The position numbers and the translations under genes are program-made. Under the pieces are notes generated by a model. It made no database searches. It was not told where the DNA came from and was given only the letters and a program-made list of their open reading frames with translations. Positions 2,007 through 12,728 of a DNA stretch of 64,000 nt are shown one piece after another. The stretch comes from Kiritimatiellia bacterium. GTDB taxonomy: Bacteria; Verrucomicrobiota; Kiritimatiellia; UBA8416; YA12-FULL-48-11. Each line of letters starts with the position of its first letter. Positions within the stretch are counted from its first letter, which is position 1. The stretch lies in the NCBI GenBank assembly GCA_028716365.1, contig JAQUPZ010000004.1, positions 372,001-436,000 on the forward strand, written 5' to 3'.

Positions 2007-4859
2007 ATGTGTAAATCTCAAAAGGCACTGATATATCATTTATCGGTCACTGTTACTATGCTGGCTTTTGCGTTTAATATTATTTATGCACAGCAGGATG
2101 CCAATGTTTCATCTCAACTCGACACAATTCTGACTTCGTTTCCCGTTCAAACCAGCGATAAGGCAGAAGAATTGTATAAACAAATTATCCGGGGTGGCAG
2201 TGATACAGTGAAAGCGCTGTGTTCTCGATTGAATCCGCCATCAACCGGAAACGATATCTCTGTTCGTTTTGCAATTCACGGAGTTGTACATTATACCGCC
2301 CGACCCGGGGCAGACAGACAACGCCGGCTGGTTTCCCAGGCATTGGCGGAATCCATCAACATTGCAACGGACGAAGAAATACAGGACTTTCTGATGGAAC
2401 AATTATGTTTTGTTGCCGACAAATCAACACTGCCTGCAATAAGCAAGTTCTTACTGAATGACCGGTTGGCGTATCGCGTCATAAGAATCGCTTTAAATGT
2501 TGGCGGTCGTAGTGCGGAACGTATGCTGATTGATGCTCTACCCCGTACCGAAGGCGCTCGTGCAATTCCAATAATTAAAGCACTCGGTGACCTCGGTTCA
2601 ACTGCCGGTTTAGAAGAATACGTACGTCGCATAAATACAACCGACAAGAACATTCAGCGGATAATTCTTTATGCATTATCGCGCACAGGTTCAGTAAAAG
2701 CCGGGGATATTTTAAAGACCTGGATGCAGACACCTCCAACAGGGATAAAGTCAGAAGAGATCGTGGCGACATACCTGAGCCATGCCGAGTATCTTGCCGA
2801 AAAAGGCAAAGAAAAAATCGCCACAGGAGTTGCCAACGATATACTGACTGCAAAGAATCAGGCCAATGCAGCTGTCCGTTGCAGGGCTTTGGCTCTTCTT
2901 GGAATGACGAAAGATCCATCCACTCTTCCATCCCTGATTTCGGCGTTGAGCGATACCGATCCTTCGATTCGGCAGCAGGCCATCAACCAAATTGCCGGAT
3001 TAAAGGGTAAAAAGGTCACGTCTGATTTGATGACTGTCGCCAAAACATCAAAAGATGAACTTCGCGCCACCATGCTCAATGCGTTATCACATCGCCCTGA
3101 TTTCAAGGACACAGCACTTTTTGAAGAAAGCCTGGGTACCGGAAATACCGCCCTGCAAAACGCTGCTTTGGAAGGCTTGTGCCGTATCGGAACTCCGGAC
3201 GCCGCACGAGTCCTATTTTCTGCCATAGAAAAAGCAGGAGAACAGGATCGTCCAGCGCTATTGGCTGCCATCAAGACCTTGTCAGGCAAGGAAGTACTTG
3301 CAGAAATCGCCGGGAAATTGAATTCGACGTCACCGGTGGTACGTGAGGCAGCAGTAATAACACTGAACGAACAACGGGGCAGTGCTTATTCGAAAGACAT
3401 ATTCAAGCTGATACATGATTCGGAACCCAAGGTTGCTCGTGCTGCATTTAATGCGCTTGGTGTACTGGCTGATGAGTCTGAAATATCAGAATTAATCGGA
3501 TCAGCCCTTGTTTCAACGAACAGCGATTACCGGAAATTCACTTCTGAAACCATATCGTCGGCGCTTCCACGTTTTACAGAACGGAAAAAGTTTGCCGACC
3601 AACTCCTGACGGCAGAAAAGAAAGCTGATCCAGAACTGCGTCACTGGATATTTTCATTGTTGCCTTCTTGTGGAGGAGCCCAGGCTCTGGAAGTTTTAAG
3701 CAAAGCAATCACCCAACCTGATGTAAAAGTTCGCGAATCAGCGATCAGGGCACTTTCCGCCTGGCCTGATGCCGCAGCATTGCCAATTCTAGTGGAAACT
3801 GTTCAAAAAGGTGATCCGGCCATGCACCGTGTTCTCGCGCTGAGAGGAACGGTTCGACTGCTTAGAGAAACAGATATGTCATCCGAACGTCGGCTGGATA
3901 TTTACGGGCAGGCGCTTAAGGCTACGCCAGGTGCCAATGAAATCAGGCTTCTGTTGTCCGGCTTGTCCGAAGTCAATGAAACAGGTACAATTGATTTGAT
4001 AGTTCCTCTCCTTGAAAGGGACGATGTTAGACCGGAATGTGCGCTGGCACTTGCGCGTATTGCCTGTCCGGAAAAGAAAACTCCTCCATCCATTCAACCC
4101 CAGCATGCAGATGCCCTGAACAAGGCACTGGAACTGGTCAAAGACGAGAAACTCCGCAAAGCCCTTGCCGAGCGTTTGAAAAAGTTTCCGCCGCCAAAAA
4201 CCACAACCACGGCGGTATCAAAATCAGTTGTAAATACAGATGGTTTTGTTCAGCTCTTTAATGGAAAAGATCTGACCGGGTGGAAAGGGCTACTTGCCGG
4301 TCCAAATGATAATCCAATAAAACGCGCCGCACTGTCGCCACAGGACTTTGCAAAGGCACAGGCAATTGCCGATGAAAATATGCGTGCCCACTGGAAAGCG
4401 GATAATGGAATACTGGTTTTTGACGGGAAAGGCCGTTCGATCTGTACAGCAAAGGATTATAAGGACTTTGAAATGCTGGTGGACTGGAAGATTCTCCCAA
4501 GCGGCGACAGCGGGATTTATCTCCGTGGTTCACCTCAGGTCCAGATATGGGACGCTACAAAATGCCGCGACGGATCAGGCGGATTATACAACAACAAGAA
4601 AAATCCCAGCAAACCTCTTGTTTGTGCCGATAAACCGATAGGCGAATGGAACTCTTTTCGAATCAAGATGGTTGGTGAGCGCGTAACGGTCCACCTGAAT
4701 GGCAAACTTGTGGTGGATAATGTGATCATGGAAAACTACTGGGACAGGAACCAGCCGATCTTCCGGACGGGACAAATTGAGCTGCAGAATCACGGTAATA
4801 CCTTGTATTTCAGGAATATATACATCAAGGAACTTACCGAGGCAGATGGGAAGAAATAA
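2007..4859 (+). CDS. Secreted HEAT-repeat protein with C-terminal DUF1080 (3-keto-disaccharide hydrolase-like) domain
   Basis: A 950-residue protein. Residues 1-28 form a signal peptide ending near IIYAQQ. Residues about 90-700 are helical HEAT-like repeats ('DPSIRQQAINQIAGL', 'DVKVRESAIRALSAW'), a binding or scaffold solenoid. From about residue 745 comes a DUF1080 domain: it starts FVQLFNGKDLTGWKG, contains the SGDSGIYLRG core and ends with an NTLYFRNIYIKEL strand. DUF1080 domains have a LamG/concanavalin-like fold, and some are reported as 3-keto-disaccharide hydrolases; activity here is inferred. The solenoid may present the domain to a polymer or to a partner such as the exported oxidoreductase just upstream, with which it probably forms an operon. 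Confidence 0.85.
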   Translation: MCKSQKALIYHLSVTVTMLAFAFNIIYAQQDANVSSQLDTILTSFPVQTSDKAEELYKQIIRGGSDTVKALCSRLNPPSTGNDISVRFAIHGVVHYTARPGADRQRRLVSQALAESINIATDEEIQDFLMEQLCFVADKSTLPAISKFLLNDRLAYRVIRIALNVGGRSAERMLIDALPRTEGARAIPIIKALGDLGSTAGLEEYVRRINTTDKNIQRIILYALSRTGSVKAGDILKTWMQTPPTGIKSEEIVATYLSHAEYLAEKGKEKIATGVANDILTAKNQANAAVRCRALALLGMTKDPSTLPSLISALSDTDPSIRQQAINQIAGLKGKKVTSDLMTVAKTSKDELRATMLNALSHRPDFKDTALFEESLGTGNTALQNAALEGLCRIGTPDAARVLFSAIEKAGEQDRPALLAAIKTLSGKEVLAEIAGKLNSTSPVVREAAVITLNEQRGSAYSKDIFKLIHDSEPKVARAAFNALGVLADESEISELIGSALVSTNSDYRKFTSETISSALPRFTERKKFADQLLTAEKKADPELRHWIFSLLPSCGGAQALEVLSKAITQPDVKVRESAIRALSAWPDAAALPILVETVQKGDPAMHRVLALRGTVRLLRETDMSSERRLDIYGQALKATPGANEIRLLLSGLSEVNETGTIDLIVPLLERDDVRPECALALARIACPEKKTPPSIQPQHADALNKALELVKDEKLRKALAERLKKFPPPKTTTTAVSKSVVNTDGFVQLFNGKDLTGWKGLLAGPNDNPIKRAALSPQDFAKAQAIADENMRAHWKADNGILVFDGKGRSICTAKDYKDFEMLVDWKILPSGDSGIYLRGSPQVQIWDATKCRDGSGGLYNNKKNPSKPLVCADKPIGEWNSFRIKMVGERVTVHLNGKLVVDNVIMENYWDRNQPIFRTGQIELQNHGNTLYFRNIYIKELTEADGKK

Positions 4860-6363: not shown

Positions 6364-7368
6364 CTAAAATGCGCCAAAGAAAATACTGGAAAACGTTGTA
6401 ATCGGAGCGGTTTCACGAAAATCATCAATCGTAGCCCTGGCTTCACTAACAATACTTTGTATGTCTTTGTAAAGTTTTTCATCCTTGAGCAGTTTACCGA
6501 GAACACCATCTCCCTTTTCTAACCCTGTAGTTATATTCTTCAACGAAGCAACCGATTCCGAAAGGTCTTTATAGAGTTTATCGTCAGGCGACATCAGTTT
6601 GCCTATCGTCCCCTCGCCTTTTTCAAGCCTGGCCGTTATGGCCTTCAAAGACGCAACCGATTCTGATAAATTGTTATAAAACTTGTCATCGGAAGATAAC
6701 AATTTACCCAGCGTTCCTTCACCTTTTTCGAGCCTTCCAGTCACAGCCTTCAGAGACGCAACTGTATCTTCCAAGTCACGGTAAAGTTTATCATCCTCGG
6801 AAAGAAGTTTACCCAGTGTACCCTTGCCGGTATTAAGGCGATTCGCTATCTCCTTTATCGAAGTCATGGTTTCCTTGAGATTATCGATCACTCCTCCCTC
6901 AGTAAGTCCTTTCTTTAACGAATTGATCATTACTGCGGCATCAGCAACAAGATCGAATGGGTCCTGTCCCTTCAGGATTATTCCTTCTGGAATCGGGTGC
7001 TCCTTATCGATTCCTTCGTTAATCTCCAGATATCTGCCACCAAGAATGGAAGCTGTGACAACCGAGATGGTATAGTCTTTATTCAGGCTTACTGGTTCTT
7101 CAAGAATAGCATGTACGTGTACACCATCCTGCTGCAGATCAAACTTTTTCACTTTTCCTATAGCCATTCCGCGAACCACAACCCGGTCTCCTTTGCTCAG
7201 GCCCATTATGTTTTTGAATACTACCTCAAGTCTGTGCTTGTCGCGGGTAAAGATGTTTTCCTTGGACAGTATGATAGTGAAATAACCCATTCCAAGGAGA
7301 ACCATTACCATAAAGGCCCCAACGACAACTTCCATCGTAAGTTCACTGGCAACCCATTCTTTTTTCAT
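6364..7368 (-). CDS. mlaD: MlaD-like MCE-domain lipid-binding protein of an ABC transporter
   Basis: A 334-residue protein with one N-terminal membrane helix (residues about 12-34) followed by an MCE domain (about 42-125), the periplasmic lipid-carrying ring subunit of Mla-type phospholipid transporters. The C-terminal part holds four repeats of about 35 residues starting at residues 181, 216, 251 and 286 (pattern GxGTLGKLL..DDKLY.DL..SVASLK..T.RLEK), probably helical. I chose the start at 7368, not an in-frame ATG 18 bases upstream, because it overlaps the mlaF stop as ATGA and has GGAAAGGAA correctly spaced. It is the last gene of the mlaE-F-D series. Confidence 0.88.
   Translation of the reverse strand: MKKEWVASELTMEVVVGAFMVMVLLGMGYFTIILSKENIFTRDKHRLEVVFKNIMGLSKGDRVVVRGMAIGKVKKFDLQQDGVHVHAILEEPVSLNKDYTISVVTASILGGRYLEINEGIDKEHPIPEGIILKGQDPFDLVADAAVMINSLKKGLTEGGVIDNLKETMTSIKEIANRLNTGKGTLGKLLSEDDKLYRDLEDTVASLKAVTGRLEKGEGTLGKLLSSDDKFYNNLSESVASLKAITARLEKGEGTIGKLMSPDDKLYKDLSESVASLKNITTGLEKGDGVLGKLLKDEKLYKDIQSIVSEARATIDDFRETAPITTFSSIFFGAF
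6409..6828 (-). repeat. Tandem repeats of about 105 bp inside mlaD
   Basis: Four consecutive in-frame units encode residues 181 to about 320 of the MlaD-like protein. The first three are exactly 35 codons; the last is one codon shorter and more diverged. The two middle units are nearly identical in protein sequence (LSESVASLK, LEKGEGT), which points to recent duplication or homogenisation. Extension by whole units would lengthen the C-terminal helix region. Confidence 0.85.
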
Positions 7369-8126
7369 TTCATATTCCTTTCCCAAGATCCCGCCTTGGT
7401 TATAAACTGTGATTCAAGAAATCCCTGAACTTCAGGCACATCCGAGTTAACAAATTCAGCAGGAGCGCAAAGTTCCACAATTTTCCCGCCATGAAGCATC
7501 GCTATCTTAGTTCCTATTGAAAGAGCGCTATGTAAATCGTGGGTTACCACAACACTGGTAATCCCAGTCGCTTTTCTCATCTGCTCGATCAAGGAATCGA
7601 TTGTACGGGATGTCACCGGATCCAGTCCCGAAGTCGGTTCATCATAAAGAACTATTTCAGGGTTCCTGATGATGGCCCTGGCAAGCCCGGCACGTTTCCT
7701 CATCCCGCCGGATATCTCGGACGGATACTTATCGACCGCTTCCTCAAGGCCCACCTTTCCAAGAGTTTCCATCACTCGCTTTTCTATCTCTTCTCCCTGC
7801 ATATTTGTCTTTTCCCGGAGAGGCAAAGCAACATTTTCACCGACACTCAACCATGCCAGCAGCGCACCACCCTGAAAAAGGAATCCGAACCGTTCCCTGA
7901 TCTTCTCGAGTTCTTCACCAACGGCACTGCTTACAATGCTGTCACCAACCATGACCTGGCCATCGTCAGGCGTGAGCAAACGTACCATGTGCTTCAACGT
8001 AACACTTTTCCCGACACCGGACGGACCAACTATACAGAAAGTCTCACCCTTCACGATCTCGAAACTGACGTCATCGAGAACCGGATTCCCCGCGAGCATC
8101 TTTTTAACATGTTGAAACTTAATCAA
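7365..8126 (-). CDS. mlaF: MlaF-like ABC transporter ATP-binding protein
   Basis: A 253-residue ATPase that powers lipid transport through MlaE. Walker A is GPSGVGKS (about residue 34), the ABC signature ISGGMRKRAGLARAI, and Walker B plus D-loop IVLYDEPTSGLDP, followed by the switch histidine in VVVTHDLHS. The GGMRKR form of the signature is typical of the Mla/Ttg2 subfamily. The start overlaps the mlaE stop by four bases and the end overlaps the mlaD start by four bases, so the three subunits are translationally coupled. Confidence 0.95.
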   Translation of the reverse strand: MIKFQHVKKMLAGNPVLDDVSFEIVKGETFCIVGPSGVGKSVTLKHMVRLLTPDDGQVMVGDSIVSSAVGEELEKIRERFGFLFQGGALLAWLSVGENVALPLREKTNMQGEEIEKRVMETLGKVGLEEAVDKYPSEISGGMRKRAGLARAIIRNPEIVLYDEPTSGLDPVTSRTIDSLIEQMRKATGITSVVVTHDLHSALSIGTKIAMLHGGKIVELCAPAEFVNSDVPEVQGFLESQFITKAGSWERNMK

Positions 8127-8932
8127 TAGAACATCCTGGTTACTATGTATCCAACGATAAGAATAAGGAGAAATGATATAATCACCGATCGTCGTGTCGC
8201 CATTCCAACACCAACCGCACCCTGACTTGTCGAGAAGCCTTCATGACACGAAACGGTTGTAATAATGATTCCGAAGAGCAACGCCTTTAAAAGGCCGACA
8301 TATAGATCCTTCAACTCTGCATACTTGGTGGCATTTTCCATGTATGCGGCCCAGGACACATTAAGTTGAGTAATGCCCACCAGCCCGCCTCCAATTAAGC
8401 CCATGACACACGTATAGAATGACAGTAATGGAGTCATGACACACATGGCAACAAGCCTGGGAGTGACAAGGAAACGGATGGGATCAATTGACATTATCTC
8501 AAGTGCAGCTATTTCCTCTGATACAACCATTGTTCCCAGCTGTGCTGCAATTGCAGAACCAACACAGGCGGCCAGGATAAGACCCGTCATGAATGGCCCC
8601 ATTTCACGGAGCATGGAAACCATAACAGCAGTACCGATATTCACTTCCTGGTTGAACCTGCGCAACTCAATTCCGGTCTGCAGGGCCAGAATCATGCCGG
8701 TAAATACAGCCACAATAGTGATGACCCCAAGGCTTTTAATACCAGAAGCAAACATTTTGGAAAGAACTTCCCGCCGGTTACGTTCACCGTACATGTACCT
8801 GACCGCAATAAAAGCACGGAGAAGCATGAGGCCGGCCCTTCCTACGTCACGGCATGCGAAAACACCATGTCGCCCCAGTCTCCCTACGGTATTCTGGGAT
8901 GGCGGGTAATATTCTGGTTCACGCGTAATTAT
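8123..8932 (-). CDS. mlaE: MlaE-like lipid ABC transporter permease; probable non-ATG start (ATA or ATT)
   Basis: A polytopic permease of the MlaE/Ttg2B family (motifs GPFMTGLILAACVGSAIAAQLGTM and ALEIMSIDPIRFLVTPR). The first ATG, at 8827, gives only 234 residues. The open frame continues upstream through a family-like amphipathic N-terminus (NTVGRLGRHGVFACRDVGRAGL) to a codon ATA at 8932-8930 that overlaps the previous gene's stop as ATAA. A strong Shine-Dalgarno AAGGAG (8941-8946) sits eight bases before it. From there the protein is 269 residues, close to E. coli MlaE. ATT at 8929 is the next option. The family call is firm; the start codon is an inference. Confidence 0.85.
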   Translation of the reverse strand: MITREPEYYPPSQNTVGRLGRHGVFACRDVGRAGLMLLRAFIAVRYMYGERNRREVLSKMFASGIKSLGVITIVAVFTGMILALQTGIELRRFNQEVNIGTAVMVSMLREMGPFMTGLILAACVGSAIAAQLGTMVVSEEIAALEIMSIDPIRFLVTPRLVAMCVMTPLLSFYTCVMGLIGGGLVGITQLNVSWAAYMENATKYAELKDLYVGLLKALLFGIIITTVSCHEGFSTSQGAVGVGMATRRSVIISFLLILIVGYIVTRMFY

Positions 8933-10449
8933 GGCTTAGACTCCTTTTCCTTACTGTTGAATTTCAGGAAGTATAGCAAACGGTAACTTTTAAGCAAATC
9001 GTCACGTTTGTATCCAAATAACCCCATAAGAAAATTCCATTCTTTTTTGCCGCATCCAGCCGAATCCGTGTTCCATGAAAATATGGGGAAAAGAGACCAA
9101 TTTCTTGCATTTTCGCCCTTATTCACACGGTGATAAATACCCCAAAACAATTCATCCTCGCTGTTTTCACCGACCTTATTATGGGAATAAAGAGTCCATA
9201 GCGGGGCCCAATTTCTTTCTATGCCCTGCATCTGTTTTGTCGGCCAAAGGTCAAGTATACGGAAACGATACGAATCGCCTTCCCTGCGATATGACCCCAA
9301 TGGCCATAGTTTGAAATACCTTGCCGTTATATTTTCCTTCACATCACTATCGTTGGGGTTCTTTTCCGTAACTACCTGACTTTCATAAGAAATTACAGGC
9401 AAGATCATGAATCTATTCATTTCCCTCTCACGATCCTTGATAGTTTCTGAATGTACAATCGGCCACAGGAAAAATGACGTTTTTATTCCCTGGAAATCCT
9501 TGTAACCCCATAACGGCCAGATATAAAACTTTTCGGGATTGGCGGAACTGTACTGGATCAATGGCCAGGGGAAATTACCCGACTTCCCCTTTTTGCCGCT
9601 GGTGTATCGGAAAAAAGGCGGTAAATACAGCCAGCTCTCCGCACTGGTAGATTTCATATGGCCGTAAAACGGAAACAAAATGAATCCCTTACCTTCAGAA
9701 CCGGGATAATCATATTTAGTAGAAGTCCAGATTGGCCACATCACCGACTCGCTTCTGGCCCTGTCACCTGTCACCGATCGCATATAGAAAGGGAAAATCC
9801 TGAAACGGCTGATATCTTTACCTGTCGTTTTCGAAAAGAACGGAAAGAGGACATCCGTGGTTTCTACACCATTGACAGATGAAAAGAGGTATAGAGGAAA
9901 TAATGCGAATACTATTTTATCCCTTCCAAGAAACTCGTTGACTTTTCCCCCAATCGGAAATACGGCAAAGTACTTTTCGTGATTAATATCAGTACCATTA
10001 AACAAGAACGGTAAAATCCATAATCGTTTTCTTGAATCCGGATTTGCTTTTTCAAAATTATGACCGAAAGCCAGAATAAACCGCCAATCCAATTCCCCTT
10101 GAAATTCTTTTATCATCCCCAGTGGCCAGACAAATTCACTCAGTTTACGTTTCTTCACAAGATCATTGGTACGGCTATAAAATGGCCTTACAGCCATGAA
10201 TGACATGCCGTTTGTATCTGTCTGCTTTTCAAAGAACGGCCCCATGGCTCTGGTACGGTCACTACTGTCGGGAGATACATCATGACTGACAACAGGACCA
10301 GCATCGTAAAAAGGTACGCTCCCGCTAGATACTGACACACAGGATAATGACATCAAAATCAGCGGAACCAGGAAAAGTCCAGCAGGCCTTCCACATGATA
10401 ATGTGCGGAAAAATTGCGAACCTATTAAACTCGGGCATGCGGTTGCCAT
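8929..10449 (-). CDS. Exported protein of repeated aromatic-Pro motifs, joined to the mla operon; unknown function
   Basis: A 506-residue protein that I cannot assign to a named family. The N-terminus has a hydrophobic segment (GLFLVPLILMSLSCVSVSSG) that could be a signal or imperfect lipoprotein signal. The rest is some 17 copies of a short motif, roughly [hydrophobic]-[W/F]-P-[L/F/I]-[aromatic], about 20-30 residues apart: FVWPLGM, FALFPLYLF, VLFPFFSK, FRIFPFYMR, VMWPIWTS, FILFPFYGH, FYIWPLWGY, FFLWPIVHS, FKLWPLGSY, WSLFPIFSW. Such a pattern suggests repeated beta strands, possibly a barrel or propeller. It starts eight bases after the pyrB stop and its end overlaps the mlaE start, so it is cotranscribed with the lipid transporter. 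A role in the outer membrane or in lipid handling is speculation. Confidence 0.75.
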   Translation of the reverse strand: MATACPSLIGSQFFRTLSCGRPAGLFLVPLILMSLSCVSVSSGSVPFYDAGPVVSHDVSPDSSDRTRAMGPFFEKQTDTNGMSFMAVRPFYSRTNDLVKKRKLSEFVWPLGMIKEFQGELDWRFILAFGHNFEKANPDSRKRLWILPFLFNGTDINHEKYFAVFPIGGKVNEFLGRDKIVFALFPLYLFSSVNGVETTDVLFPFFSKTTGKDISRFRIFPFYMRSVTGDRARSESVMWPIWTSTKYDYPGSEGKGFILFPFYGHMKSTSAESWLYLPPFFRYTSGKKGKSGNFPWPLIQYSSANPEKFYIWPLWGYKDFQGIKTSFFLWPIVHSETIKDREREMNRFMILPVISYESQVVTEKNPNDSDVKENITARYFKLWPLGSYRREGDSYRFRILDLWPTKQMQGIERNWAPLWTLYSHNKVGENSEDELFWGIYHRVNKGENARNWSLFPIFSWNTDSAGCGKKEWNFLMGLFGYKRDDLLKSYRLLYFLKFNSKEKESKP

Positions 10450-10457
10450 GATTTCAG

Positions 10458-11537
10458 TTAAATGTTTTTCCGGCTGTAATGACGAATTTTATCATCGCTG
10501 GCGAAAATGGTTGCGATCAAAGCTGCCCTTATCCACATACCATTTCGCATCTGGCGCCAGTAAACAGCCCGCGGATCATCATCAACGTCGTGAGATATTT
10601 CATTTCTCCTGGGAAAAGGATGCATTATAACCGCGTCCTTTTTTAACAGCACCAGATGACCTACCGTAAAACAGTATTTTGACGTGTCAATTTTCGTGCT
10701 GTCACCTTTTTTGACATCCCACTCATCCTGCACCCGCGTCATGTAAATCGCATCAGCCGACGGGATTGAGCTTTCGAAATCCTCAGATACTTCGTACTTA
10801 ACTCCTGCCGCCTTGAGCATGGCCAGCACATCTTCGCCGATCTGCAGTTGTTTTGGCGCAACAAAGCACTGTTCGACATCGTTATACCTGGTGAGTAATG
10901 ATGCCAGAGATCTTACCGTTCTGCCGCGTGCCAGATCGCCAACAAAAACAATCTTTTTACCGTCAATACCGCCACGTTGTTCGAAACTTCTCTGGAGGGT
11001 GTAAATATCAAGCAACGCCTGGGTCGGATGCTGATCCTTTCCTGAACCCGCGTTGATTATCGGTACCGGCCGGTCGGTATTTGAAAGCACCCATGCCATT
11101 CTCTCTGCAAGACCACCAATCTCGCTTCTCATGATGATAAGGTCAAAATACGAACTGAATGTTCTTACCGAATCTTCACGCGATTCGCCCTTGAACTCGC
11201 TTGAAGTTGCGGTATCCCTTACTTCACCGATACTCATACCGAGGATTTCACAGGCCGAACAGAATGAAAGGAATGTCCTGGTACTCGGCTGACTGAAGTA
11301 AAGCATTGCCCTCTTGTGAGATAAAAGATCACGTAAAAATTTCATTCCAGTTTTTGTCTTTGCAATAAATCTTACCTGCGTGGCAAGGGCTCCAAGCATA
11401 TCAAGCTGTTCCCTGTTAAATTGCTGAGCCGTAAGGACATGCGCAGGACGCTCATTTTCGACGAGATACGGAGCCTTGTCTGCAGGGGCAATTTTATTGA
11501 ATTCATCCCACGAGATTTCACTCAAACGCCTGCTCAT
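10458..11537 (-). CDS. pyrB: Aspartate carbamoyltransferase, catalytic chain
   Basis: A 359-residue enzyme joining carbamoyl phosphate to aspartate in pyrimidine synthesis. Carbamoyl-phosphate motifs are FSQPSTRT and HPTQALLD; the aspartate-side motifs RVQDEW and HPFPRRNEI are of the ATCase rather than OTCase type. It is about 50 residues longer than E. coli PyrB, mostly as an N-terminal extension. Two deviations stand out: the usual acidic residue before (P/A)STRT is Gln, and the Arg after STRT is Phe. The start overlaps the argF stop as ATGA. No pyrI regulatory chain is nearby. Confidence 0.88.
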   Translation of the reverse strand: MSRRLSEISWDEFNKIAPADKAPYLVENERPAHVLTAQQFNREQLDMLGALATQVRFIAKTKTGMKFLRDLLSHKRAMLYFSQPSTRTFLSFCSACEILGMSIGEVRDTATSSEFKGESREDSVRTFSSYFDLIIMRSEIGGLAERMAWVLSNTDRPVPIINAGSGKDQHPTQALLDIYTLQRSFEQRGGIDGKKIVFVGDLARGRTVRSLASLLTRYNDVEQCFVAPKQLQIGEDVLAMLKAAGVKYEVSEDFESSIPSADAIYMTRVQDEWDVKKGDSTKIDTSKYCFTVGHLVLLKKDAVIMHPFPRRNEISHDVDDDPRAVYWRQMRNGMWIRAALIATIFASDDKIRHYSRKNI

Positions 11538-12577
11538 TTACGTTTCACCGCCTTTCTTACAATCGACGACTTTACCACATTCTTGGCAGGTCCGAGCGCT
11601 GCCACAAACAAGGCCTTTATTGTATGAACCCTGTTCTCGGCTTCGTCAAAGACCTTCGAAAACGGGGCCTCAAACACGTCGTTTGTAACCTCCAAGGCAC
11701 CTATGTCGCTTGTAATCTCGGTGTTTTTGTCATGAAATGCAGGCAGACAATGGAGGAAAATAATTTTATTTTTCTCAAGATTGCCTGTTTTCTGCATCAC
11801 TTTCATATTCACCTGATATGGCCTGAGAAGCTTCAACCTCTCGGCAAATTTTGACTCTTCCCCCATTGACACCCATACATCGGTGTAAATAACATTTGCC
11901 CCGGCAACTGCAGTTTCAATATTATGAACAATAGAGATCGTACACTTGTTGCGTGCAGCGATTTCTTCAGCCCCATCTATCAAATCCTGCTGGGGTGACA
12001 GTTCTGGCGGTGTACAGTTGACAAAGTGCACTCCTGCCTTGGCACAACCCACCATAAGCGAATTCGCCACGTTGTTGCGACCATCTCCGGCATAGACAAG
12101 TTTCAATCCTTTCAACCTGCCGAATGCCTCCCGTACGGTCATAAGATCTGCCAATACCTGTGTGGGATGCGACTCATCAGTCAGTCCATTCCATACCGGT
12201 ACTCCTGAATATTTCTGAAGCTTCTCAACTGTCTCATGCTTGTAACCACGGAATAGAATACCATCAAACATTCTTCCCAAAACTCGGGCTGTATCTGCAA
12301 CTGATTCCTTACCACCGAGATGTATTTCCCTTGAAGAGAGATACTCTGCGCGCCCTCCCTCGTCAGCCGCCGCAACTCCCGCCGCACATCGTGTCCTCGT
12401 AGACATCTTTTCGAATACAAGAGCGATATTTTTTCGCTCAAGAAGGTTTCCTTTTATTCCTGCTTTCTTTTTCTTTTTCAATTCGTCGGCAAGATCTATC
12501 AGGTAAATGAACTCTTCGTCTGTAATATCATAGAGCTTCATCAATCCCTTGCCATGCATATCTATTCTGGTTTTCAT
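11534..12577 (-). CDS. argF: Ornithine carbamoyltransferase
   Basis: A 347-residue enzyme making citrulline from ornithine and carbamoyl phosphate (arginine synthesis, or the reverse in arginine breakdown). Diagnostic motifs are EKMSTRTR (carbamoyl phosphate), HPTQVLADL and the OTC-specific HCLPAFHD. I chose the ATG at 12577 because GGGAGAAG precedes it at good spacing and the protein then begins MKTRIDMHGKGLMKLYDIT; two upstream ATGs are possible but less likely. It heads a minus-strand series with pyrB, two carbamoyl-phosphate users translated in tandem. Confidence 0.92.
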   Translation of the reverse strand: MKTRIDMHGKGLMKLYDITDEEFIYLIDLADELKKKKKAGIKGNLLERKNIALVFEKMSTRTRCAAGVAAADEGGRAEYLSSREIHLGGKESVADTARVLGRMFDGILFRGYKHETVEKLQKYSGVPVWNGLTDESHPTQVLADLMTVREAFGRLKGLKLVYAGDGRNNVANSLMVGCAKAGVHFVNCTPPELSPQQDLIDGAEEIAARNKCTISIVHNIETAVAGANVIYTDVWVSMGEESKFAERLKLLRPYQVNMKVMQKTGNLEKNKIIFLHCLPAFHDKNTEITSDIGALEVTNDVFEAPFSKVFDEAENRVHTIKALFVAALGPAKNVVKSSIVRKAVKRK

Positions 12578-12728
12578 CTCTTCTCCCATGATCGGACCAC
12601 ACAATTATCAAATCAGGATATTACCGACTGATCAGCCGGAAAGGCAAAACAAATATGACGCTTTGAGGACTGCCACCCACCGTTTCTTTGAGAAATAACG
12701 ACTACGGTTGCCCTGGCTTATTCAGAAT

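Follow-up and report, generated by a model that had tools for sequence, protein, structure and literature searches.

A window of 64,000 nucleotides from a Kiritimatiellia bacterium (phylum Verrucomicrobiota; assembly GCA_028716365.1, contig JAQUPZ010000004.1, positions 372,001 to 436,000), meaning the whole stretch of DNA that was analysed, contains a gene for a protein of 506 amino acids (AA) with repeated aromatic-proline motifs. This protein, for which the working name REP is used, is encoded on the minus strand at 8929-10449 with an ATG start and is considered here as a candidate partner of a lipid transporter at the outer membrane. The genes mlaE, mlaF and mlaD lie directly downstream, adjacent to each other on the same strand, and their Pfam domains (PF02405, ABC_tran and PF02470) place them in an Mla/MCE transporter. 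The following features were assigned, with the type of evidence given in brackets.

8929..10449, minus strand: REP, aromatic-proline repeat protein with a predicted export signal and a predicted beta ribbon (open reading frame, homologues, AlphaFold2 model, repeats)
10339..10449, minus strand: REP residues 1-37, N-terminal hydrophobic export segment up to Cys37, a possible lipobox with weak consensus (sequence, family pattern)
8956..10308, minus strand: REP residues 48-498, 46 predicted short antiparallel strands (model, family alignment)
8123..8932, minus strand: mlaE, permease (PF02405, E-value 2.5e-68), with ATA at 8932 as likely start (Pfam, relatives' loci)
7365..8126, minus strand: mlaF, ATPase (ABC_tran; Pfam, NCBIfam)
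6364..7386, minus strand: mlaD, long form of 340 AA with a transmembrane helix, an MCE domain (PF02470), a helical tail of about 200 residues and no predicted beta barrel (Pfam, model)
6367..6405, minus strand: MlaD residues 328-340 (PITTFSSIFFGAF), conserved C-terminus, hydrophobic and without charge, proposed to contact REP or the outer membrane (sequence comparison)
10458..12604, minus strand: pyrB and argF, upstream of REP (carbamoyltransferases by Pfam and NCBIfam)

The 3' end of REP overlaps or abuts mlaE, as had been proposed from the sequence of the window. The first in-frame ATG lies at 8827, downstream of the first codon of the query (8929), to which the matches to MlaE in relatives extend. 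In one relative (L134), the ATG of mlaE overlaps the stop codon of REP as ATGA. Since the window reads ATAA at this site, the likely start of mlaE is the rare codon ATA (8932-8930), the alternative being the later ATG at 8827.

Repeats, export and family membership of REP

The original prediction described about 17 copies of a short aromatic-proline motif. As a repeat count this holds, as an alignment of 81 family sequences contains 18 conserved proline-centred repeats with 14 of 17 spacings between 16 and 21 residues, but the strict form [WF]P[LFI][WFYHI] occurs in only 8 copies. Compared with 10,000 shuffles of REP residues 38-506, both wider forms are enriched: [WF]P[LFIY] has 12 copies (shuffle mean 1.0, maximum 6) and the relaxed [WFYLI]P[LFIVYW] has 15 (mean 3.1, maximum 12). 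Relative to the conserved proline, the commonest residues in the alignment are F at -4, L/V/I at -2, W/F at -1, L/F/I at +1 and Y/F/W at +2, and Gly, Asp, Asn and charged residues are found about 8-10 positions away.

The likely signal sequence noted beforehand is present as a hydrophobic segment at the N-terminus whose last residues are LSC (Cys37). A clear segment of this kind was found in 101 of the 120 listed homologues. Judged by simple patterns, a lipobox-like Cys is present in 65 of these 101 and a loose signal-peptidase-I pattern in 31, while 5 fit neither; a stricter pattern was matched by 46 of the 120. Based on these N-terminal patterns across homologues, export of REP is well predicted. 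The protein is also predicted to be a lipoprotein in many members, with a lipidation signal that is mixed across the homologues.

REP has no match in Pfam, NCBIfam or PDB, which agrees with the earlier impression that no named family shows this pattern. A profile of the 81 family sequences had no PDB match either, and a Pfam scan of these members returned two chance-level matches in one member each; a clear assignment to an unrelated family of cytoplasmic proteins was thus not obtained from these databases. The Pfam domains of MlaA (PF04333) and MlaC (PF05494) were detected neither in REP (E-value ≤ 1) nor in 80 homologues (E-value ≤ 0.1), and no Pfam or NCBIfam profile of AsmA-like or LptA-like bridges matched REP. 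The family is large, with 1,228 homologues in the protein database at an E-value of ≤ 1e-3 and 1,274 when the profile is used. Among the matches listed (120 per search), few are named, all of them as 'hypothetical protein' and none with a functional name, and the organisms, where given, belong to Kiritimatiellia, Lentisphaerae or Verrucomicrobia. A description of the family was not found in the open-licence literature searched, including the available portions of PMC10665443 and, for the G-box, PMC11756378.

Conserved linkage and the C-terminus of MlaD

Searching genome contigs with the single REP sequence returned no relatives; the alignment found 89, of which 80 were kept as named loci. REP is present in 50 of the 57 genomes of the order and class, with the source genome included, and in 35 of 36 among good assemblies. 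A close mlaE follows REP in 26 of 29 relatives' loci (L004-L032), the exceptions being L030, which ends at REP, L022, which has no mlaE within 1.5 kb, and L019 with a divergent mlaE. The full order REP-mlaE-mlaF-mlaD on one strand was found in 69 of the 80 named loci. In six of the 11 incomplete ones (L074, L085, L102, L131, L141 and L142), the contig stops no more than 500 bases from REP, and the other five comprise L134 with mlaE only, L084 with a divergent mlaE, and L095, L100 and L110 without mlaE. Around the hits from the phylum (L145-L175), 25 of 31 loci have the full order. Here, no mla gene was found beside REP in L168, L171 and L173, the contig ends in L169 and L175, and L172 contains a long paralogue. 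Three additional loci with the complete order (L182, L199 and L200) had been missed by the first phylum-wide REP search. Two of them, L199 and L200, were hidden among 20 loci fetched around MlaE from genomes initially scored as REP-negative. Since REP was found beside MlaE in such genomes, the first search undercounts REP, with at least three missed. The proposal that REP is locked into the mla operon passed this check of conserved linkage strongly. In some relatives (L004, L005, L013 and L015), one or two in-frame stop codons lie within the aligned REP stretch.

In 96 REP loci, the tail of MlaD after the MCE domain measures 104-253 AA with a median of 212, the lowest value belonging to the divergent MlaD of L084, compared to 32-59 AA with a median of 37 in the 17 measurable loci with MlaC and MlaA. 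MlaD tails are likewise long in 16 loci without REP (129-241 AA). In an AlphaFold2 monomer model, the MlaD of the window consists of a transmembrane helix and the MCE fold, followed beyond residue 146 by helices alone. With a predicted local distance difference test score (pLDDT) of 50-86 in the tail, about 50-60 for the last residues, and a predicted template modelling score (pTM) of 0.48, this model contains no C-terminal barrel of the kind known from Veillonella parvula.

The C-terminus of MlaD is strikingly conserved in the class as RETxPITTFTSIFFGAF, and it reads GPITAVG...ALF or similar in families f51, f64 and f69 and GSVGSAAGALSNGLF in f67. When a hydrophobic uncharged end is defined as a hydrophobic last residue without charge in the last 12, it is found in 93 of 96 REP-linked MlaDs, but in none of the 19 MlaDs from MlaC/MlaA clusters and none of the 18 from the set without REP. 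The exceptions are L153 and L155, with one charge each, and L084. A looser test that requires only a hydrophobic last residue gave 96 of 96, 4 of 20 and 0 of 16, respectively. Sixteen genomes were also chosen in which REP is apart from mlaD, weak or not found, and two of them (G142 and G174), in which no REP came up, were moved to the group without REP. The remaining 14 have exactly one hydrophobic-ended MlaD each; in one of these (G171), REP was not found and the contig ends inside mlaE. In a search of the phylum with an MlaD profile, matches up to the end of the model were counted by hand in at least 81 genomes; REP is present in 78 of these 81. The three without a REP found are G171, G174 and G130, and the status of G174 is unsure because it is represented by a fragment at a contig start. 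For L084, where REP stands before the divergent MlaE, a switch of REP to another transporter was considered and rejected, as the genome keeps a hydrophobic-ended MlaD elsewhere.

These results bear on the idea that REP merely shares the operon and has an unrelated role in the envelope. In its favour, pyrB (upstream of REP in 27 of the 80 named loci) and argF are also frequent neighbours with no evident tie to lipids. However, the linkage of REP to mla genes is far more constant than that to pyrB, and REP co-occurs with the special MlaD even where the genes are apart, so that such hitchhiking appears highly improbable.

The source genome also has a second, divergent mlaE (L181, G000:C4:126000-142000) with an mlaD-like frame of 529 AA. 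REP is not beside it, and the frame lacks the hydrophobic C-terminus.

Distribution of REP, MlaA and MlaC

Neither MlaA nor MlaC was found in the source genome; of 14 control genomes, Escherichia coli and Caulobacter were positive for both. In a phylum sample of 240 genomes, MlaE was detected in 221, MlaA in 93 and MlaC in 27. REP alone occurs in 98 of these genomes, MlaA alone in 83, both in 10 and neither in 49, where the REP count combines 105 genomes from the phylum-wide search with three found later. The resulting exclusion has a Fisher p-value of 1e-18 that is not corrected for kinship, and a kinship-free reading of this value was rejected. Weight is placed instead on family f51, whose 20 genomes comprise 16 with REP, 4 with MlaA, none with both and none with neither (Fisher, 2e-4); before the missed REP of G217 was added, the counts were 15, 4, 0 and 1 (p = 1e-3). 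From these sequence-based counts, REP and MlaA appear to be largely exclusive.

The ten genomes with both are of several kinds. In G001, G145 and G243, MlaA adjoins MlaC near another mlaE, and the fetched clusters of G001 and G145 are mlaE-mlaF-mlaD sets without REP. MlaA lies beside MlaC in G004 and G043 as well. The remaining five (G086, G091, G096, G133 and G254) have MlaA in frames of 684-808 AA, and the search of their genomes for MlaC was negative. A tree of 95 of the 143 MlaE sequences places the permeases linked to MlaC and MlaA on one side of a branch whose support of 66/94 is not firm; those linked to REP fall into two groups with good support, of 30 and 22 members, with L084 in addition. 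Based on this grouping and on the clusters of the double genomes, it looks as if whole cassettes were exchanged rather than single parts.

MlaE is present in 39 of the 49 genomes with neither protein. Where a long MlaD occurs with neither REP nor MlaA, as in most of L185-L198 and of L201-L203, the measured MlaDs have charged tail ends, for which reason these clusters may have a further partner or none. Frames in which the MlaA domain is embedded in a longer protein were observed at L178:4876-7041 and L179:3437-5626 and measure about 600-880 AA in families such as f47, f53 and f59; in the sampled genomes of these three, MlaC was not found. The L179 frame also weakly matches esterase/hydrolase models, and these proteins are perhaps MlaA-lipase fusions. 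Short MlaDs with tails of 32-59 AA occur alongside MlaC and MlaA in the sampled phylum (L205-L222, L176, L177 and L184), which contrasts with the restriction of short MlaD to Proteobacteria stated in the available part of Grasekamp et al. (PMC10665443).

The system can be compared with two known ones. With MlaFEDB-MlaC-MlaA/OmpC of E. coli it shares MlaE, MlaF and the MCE domain of MlaD, but the source genome combines a long MlaD with REP and has no detected MlaA or MlaC; mla clusters with MlaC and MlaA exist in other members of the phylum. In V. parvula, according to the available text of Grasekamp et al. 2023 (PMC10665443), MlaEFD alone forms a bridge and MlaD carries an outer-membrane beta barrel. 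The MlaEFD core, the long helical MlaD and the apparent lack of MlaA and MlaC are common to both systems, whereas the barrel on the MlaD C-terminus of V. parvula has no predicted counterpart here, where a separate linked gene, REP, is present instead. The same text reports that the barrel is completely absent from MlaDs of the Planctomycetes-Verrucomicrobia-Chlamydiae (PVC) and Fibrobacteres-Chlorobi-Bacteroidetes (FCB) groups.

The pattern is also relevant to whether REP could be a periplasmic assembly or regulatory factor of MlaEFD without lipid contact. Tight coupling and linkage would suit any subunit, but the exclusion of MlaA and the absence of MlaC indicate the outer-membrane end, and a role of this type is considered rather improbable. 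An outer membrane is likely in the source organism because Omp85 is present; a Pfam search of its genome detected neither LptD (PF04453) nor LolA (PF03548).

Predicted fold and proposed role of REP

The AlphaFold2 model of REP (pLDDT 89.6, pTM 0.78) consists of about 46 short antiparallel strands with a mean length of 5.9 residues, 37 of the 46 being 5-6 residues long. Together with the predicted export segment, this agrees with the expectation of a beta-rich exported protein. The best VIA structural matches are open single-layer sheets, namely the CPAP G-box/TCP10 domain (4bxr) and Borrelia OspA, with root-mean-square deviations (rmsd) above 10 Å. REP is longer than these proteins, which have unrelated functions and no detected sequence match to it. 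The matches with the top Foldseek E-values (LRP2, teneurin, WD-propeller) were rejected as generic beta matches, as the first 20 rows have template modelling scores of 0.09-0.15 and rmsd values of 21-39 Å, and a structure search of BFVD gave nothing better. AsmA-like and LptA-like folds are missing from the list of structural matches, an absence that excludes nothing. In the model, REP forms a single layer of about 46 antiparallel strands with the shape of a narrow ribbon. Alignment and model together suggest beta hairpins whose turns are mostly of the hydrophobic W/F-P type along one edge and polar (Gly/Asn/Asp/Lys) along the opposite edge. At about 4.8 Å per strand, the modelled ribbon would be roughly 200 Å long, which is near the width of the periplasm.

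The original prediction placed REP in the position of MlaA, which is supported by the failure to find MlaA and MlaC in the genome and by the near-exclusion with MlaA. A barrel or propeller, named there as a supporting outcome of structure modelling, is not favoured, given the short strands and the open single-layer sheets of the best-matching solved structures. This also concerns the possibility that REP is a transmembrane beta barrel, porin-like as OmpC is for MlaA. Strands of 5-6 residues with polar and charged positions are short for a membrane wall and the better-scoring structural matches are open sheets, so that a transmembrane barrel is very unlikely.

Overall, REP is judged somewhat more probably than otherwise to be the outer-membrane-side partner of a shuttle-free MlaEFD, in which a predicted periplasmic beta ribbon fills the place of MlaC and MlaA. 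This role is favoured because of the conserved gene order, the failure to find MlaA and MlaC, the near-exclusion with MlaA, the long MlaD tail and its hydrophobic end. REP may thus act like the outer-membrane end of Mla, yet it belongs to neither the MlaA nor the MlaC family. In such a system, MlaEFD would pump phospholipid in one direction or the other and the long helical tails of the MlaD hexamer would span the periplasm without an MlaC shuttle. The hydrophobic MlaD end could dock on REP, or beside REP in the outer membrane, and REP would anchor or prolong the bridge there. Lipids might pass inside MlaD or along the hydrophobic W/F-P edge of REP, which would serve as path or seat. Two genomes weigh against this role: in G134, the 5.7 kb downstream of REP contain neither mlaE nor mlaD, and a close match to MlaD is missing, and in G130 mlaD, of the hydrophobic-ended set, lies apart from mlaE and mlaF and no REP was found, an exception that is unexplained.

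If REP is such a partner, the extent of its contact with lipids is a separate question. LptA, AsmA/TamB/YhdP and VPS13 are elongated bridge-like lipid carriers whose hydrophobic side is proposed to guide the lipid, and their folds are jellyroll or taco grooves. The modelled REP resembles them as an elongated beta structure with a hydrophobic side, but differs in its predicted up-and-down hairpins with proline turns and in having no Pfam or NCBIfam match. A tentative extension, held with clearly less confidence than the partner role itself, is that REP represents a new class of bridge-like lipid carrier. Its single-layer ribbon of about 200 Å would present the W/F-P-L/F turns as a continuous hydrophobic rail, docked on the hydrophobic ends of the MlaD hexamer, on which phospholipids move from membrane to membrane in sliding contact. 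With the MlaC/MlaA shuttle and the MlaD barrel as the other two, this would be a third solution at the outer membrane, and the longer paralogues of 820-1200 AA would be further rails. Alternatively, REP may be only an anchor or cap, with the lipids travelling inside a tube of hexameric MlaD helices whose end is held at the outer membrane or the peptidoglycan. The co-occurrence of the hydrophobic MlaD end with REP is consistent with this, as is the closed tunnel that the available text of Grasekamp et al. (PMC10665443) describes as better supported for long MlaD. However, a pure anchor would leave a conserved repeat region of about 450 residues with a continuous hydrophobic edge unexplained, and it is considered an unlikely though serious option.

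With regard to the partner role, REP is a candidate in much of one PVC phylum with barrel-less MlaD. Its family, for which no prior description was found, occurs in the same operon, excludes MlaA in the well-sampled family f51 and is coupled to a specific MlaD C-terminus. If the ribbon is true, the fold would be one that is not known from lipid transport so far.

A long paralogue of REP is encoded elsewhere in the source genome (L180:3325-5832, G000:C7). This frame of 836 AA has a lipobox-like N-terminus and lies between a fusion of MFS, PlsC and AMP-binding domains (LplT-Aas-like) and plsY. With at least 661 relatives at an E-value of ≤ 1e-3, it represents a second large unnamed family. A phospholipid-repair operon was considered for it but not upheld in general: among 18 other loci, 17 of them with a REP-like frame, an LplT-like MFS protein is near in two (L239 and L240) and PlsY in none, and the phospholipid neighbourhood is therefore not general.

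Upstream of REP, the gap to pyrB is 8 bases, and pyrB and argF are probably co-transcribed with REP without a part in the mechanism. The coupling of carbamoyltransferases with a lipid transporter is odd yet recurrent, and a tie of pyrB and argF to lipids is not evident. On the plus strand, the window also encodes a protein of 950 AA (2007-4859), which we take to have HEAT-like repeats and a C-terminal domain resembling DUF1080.
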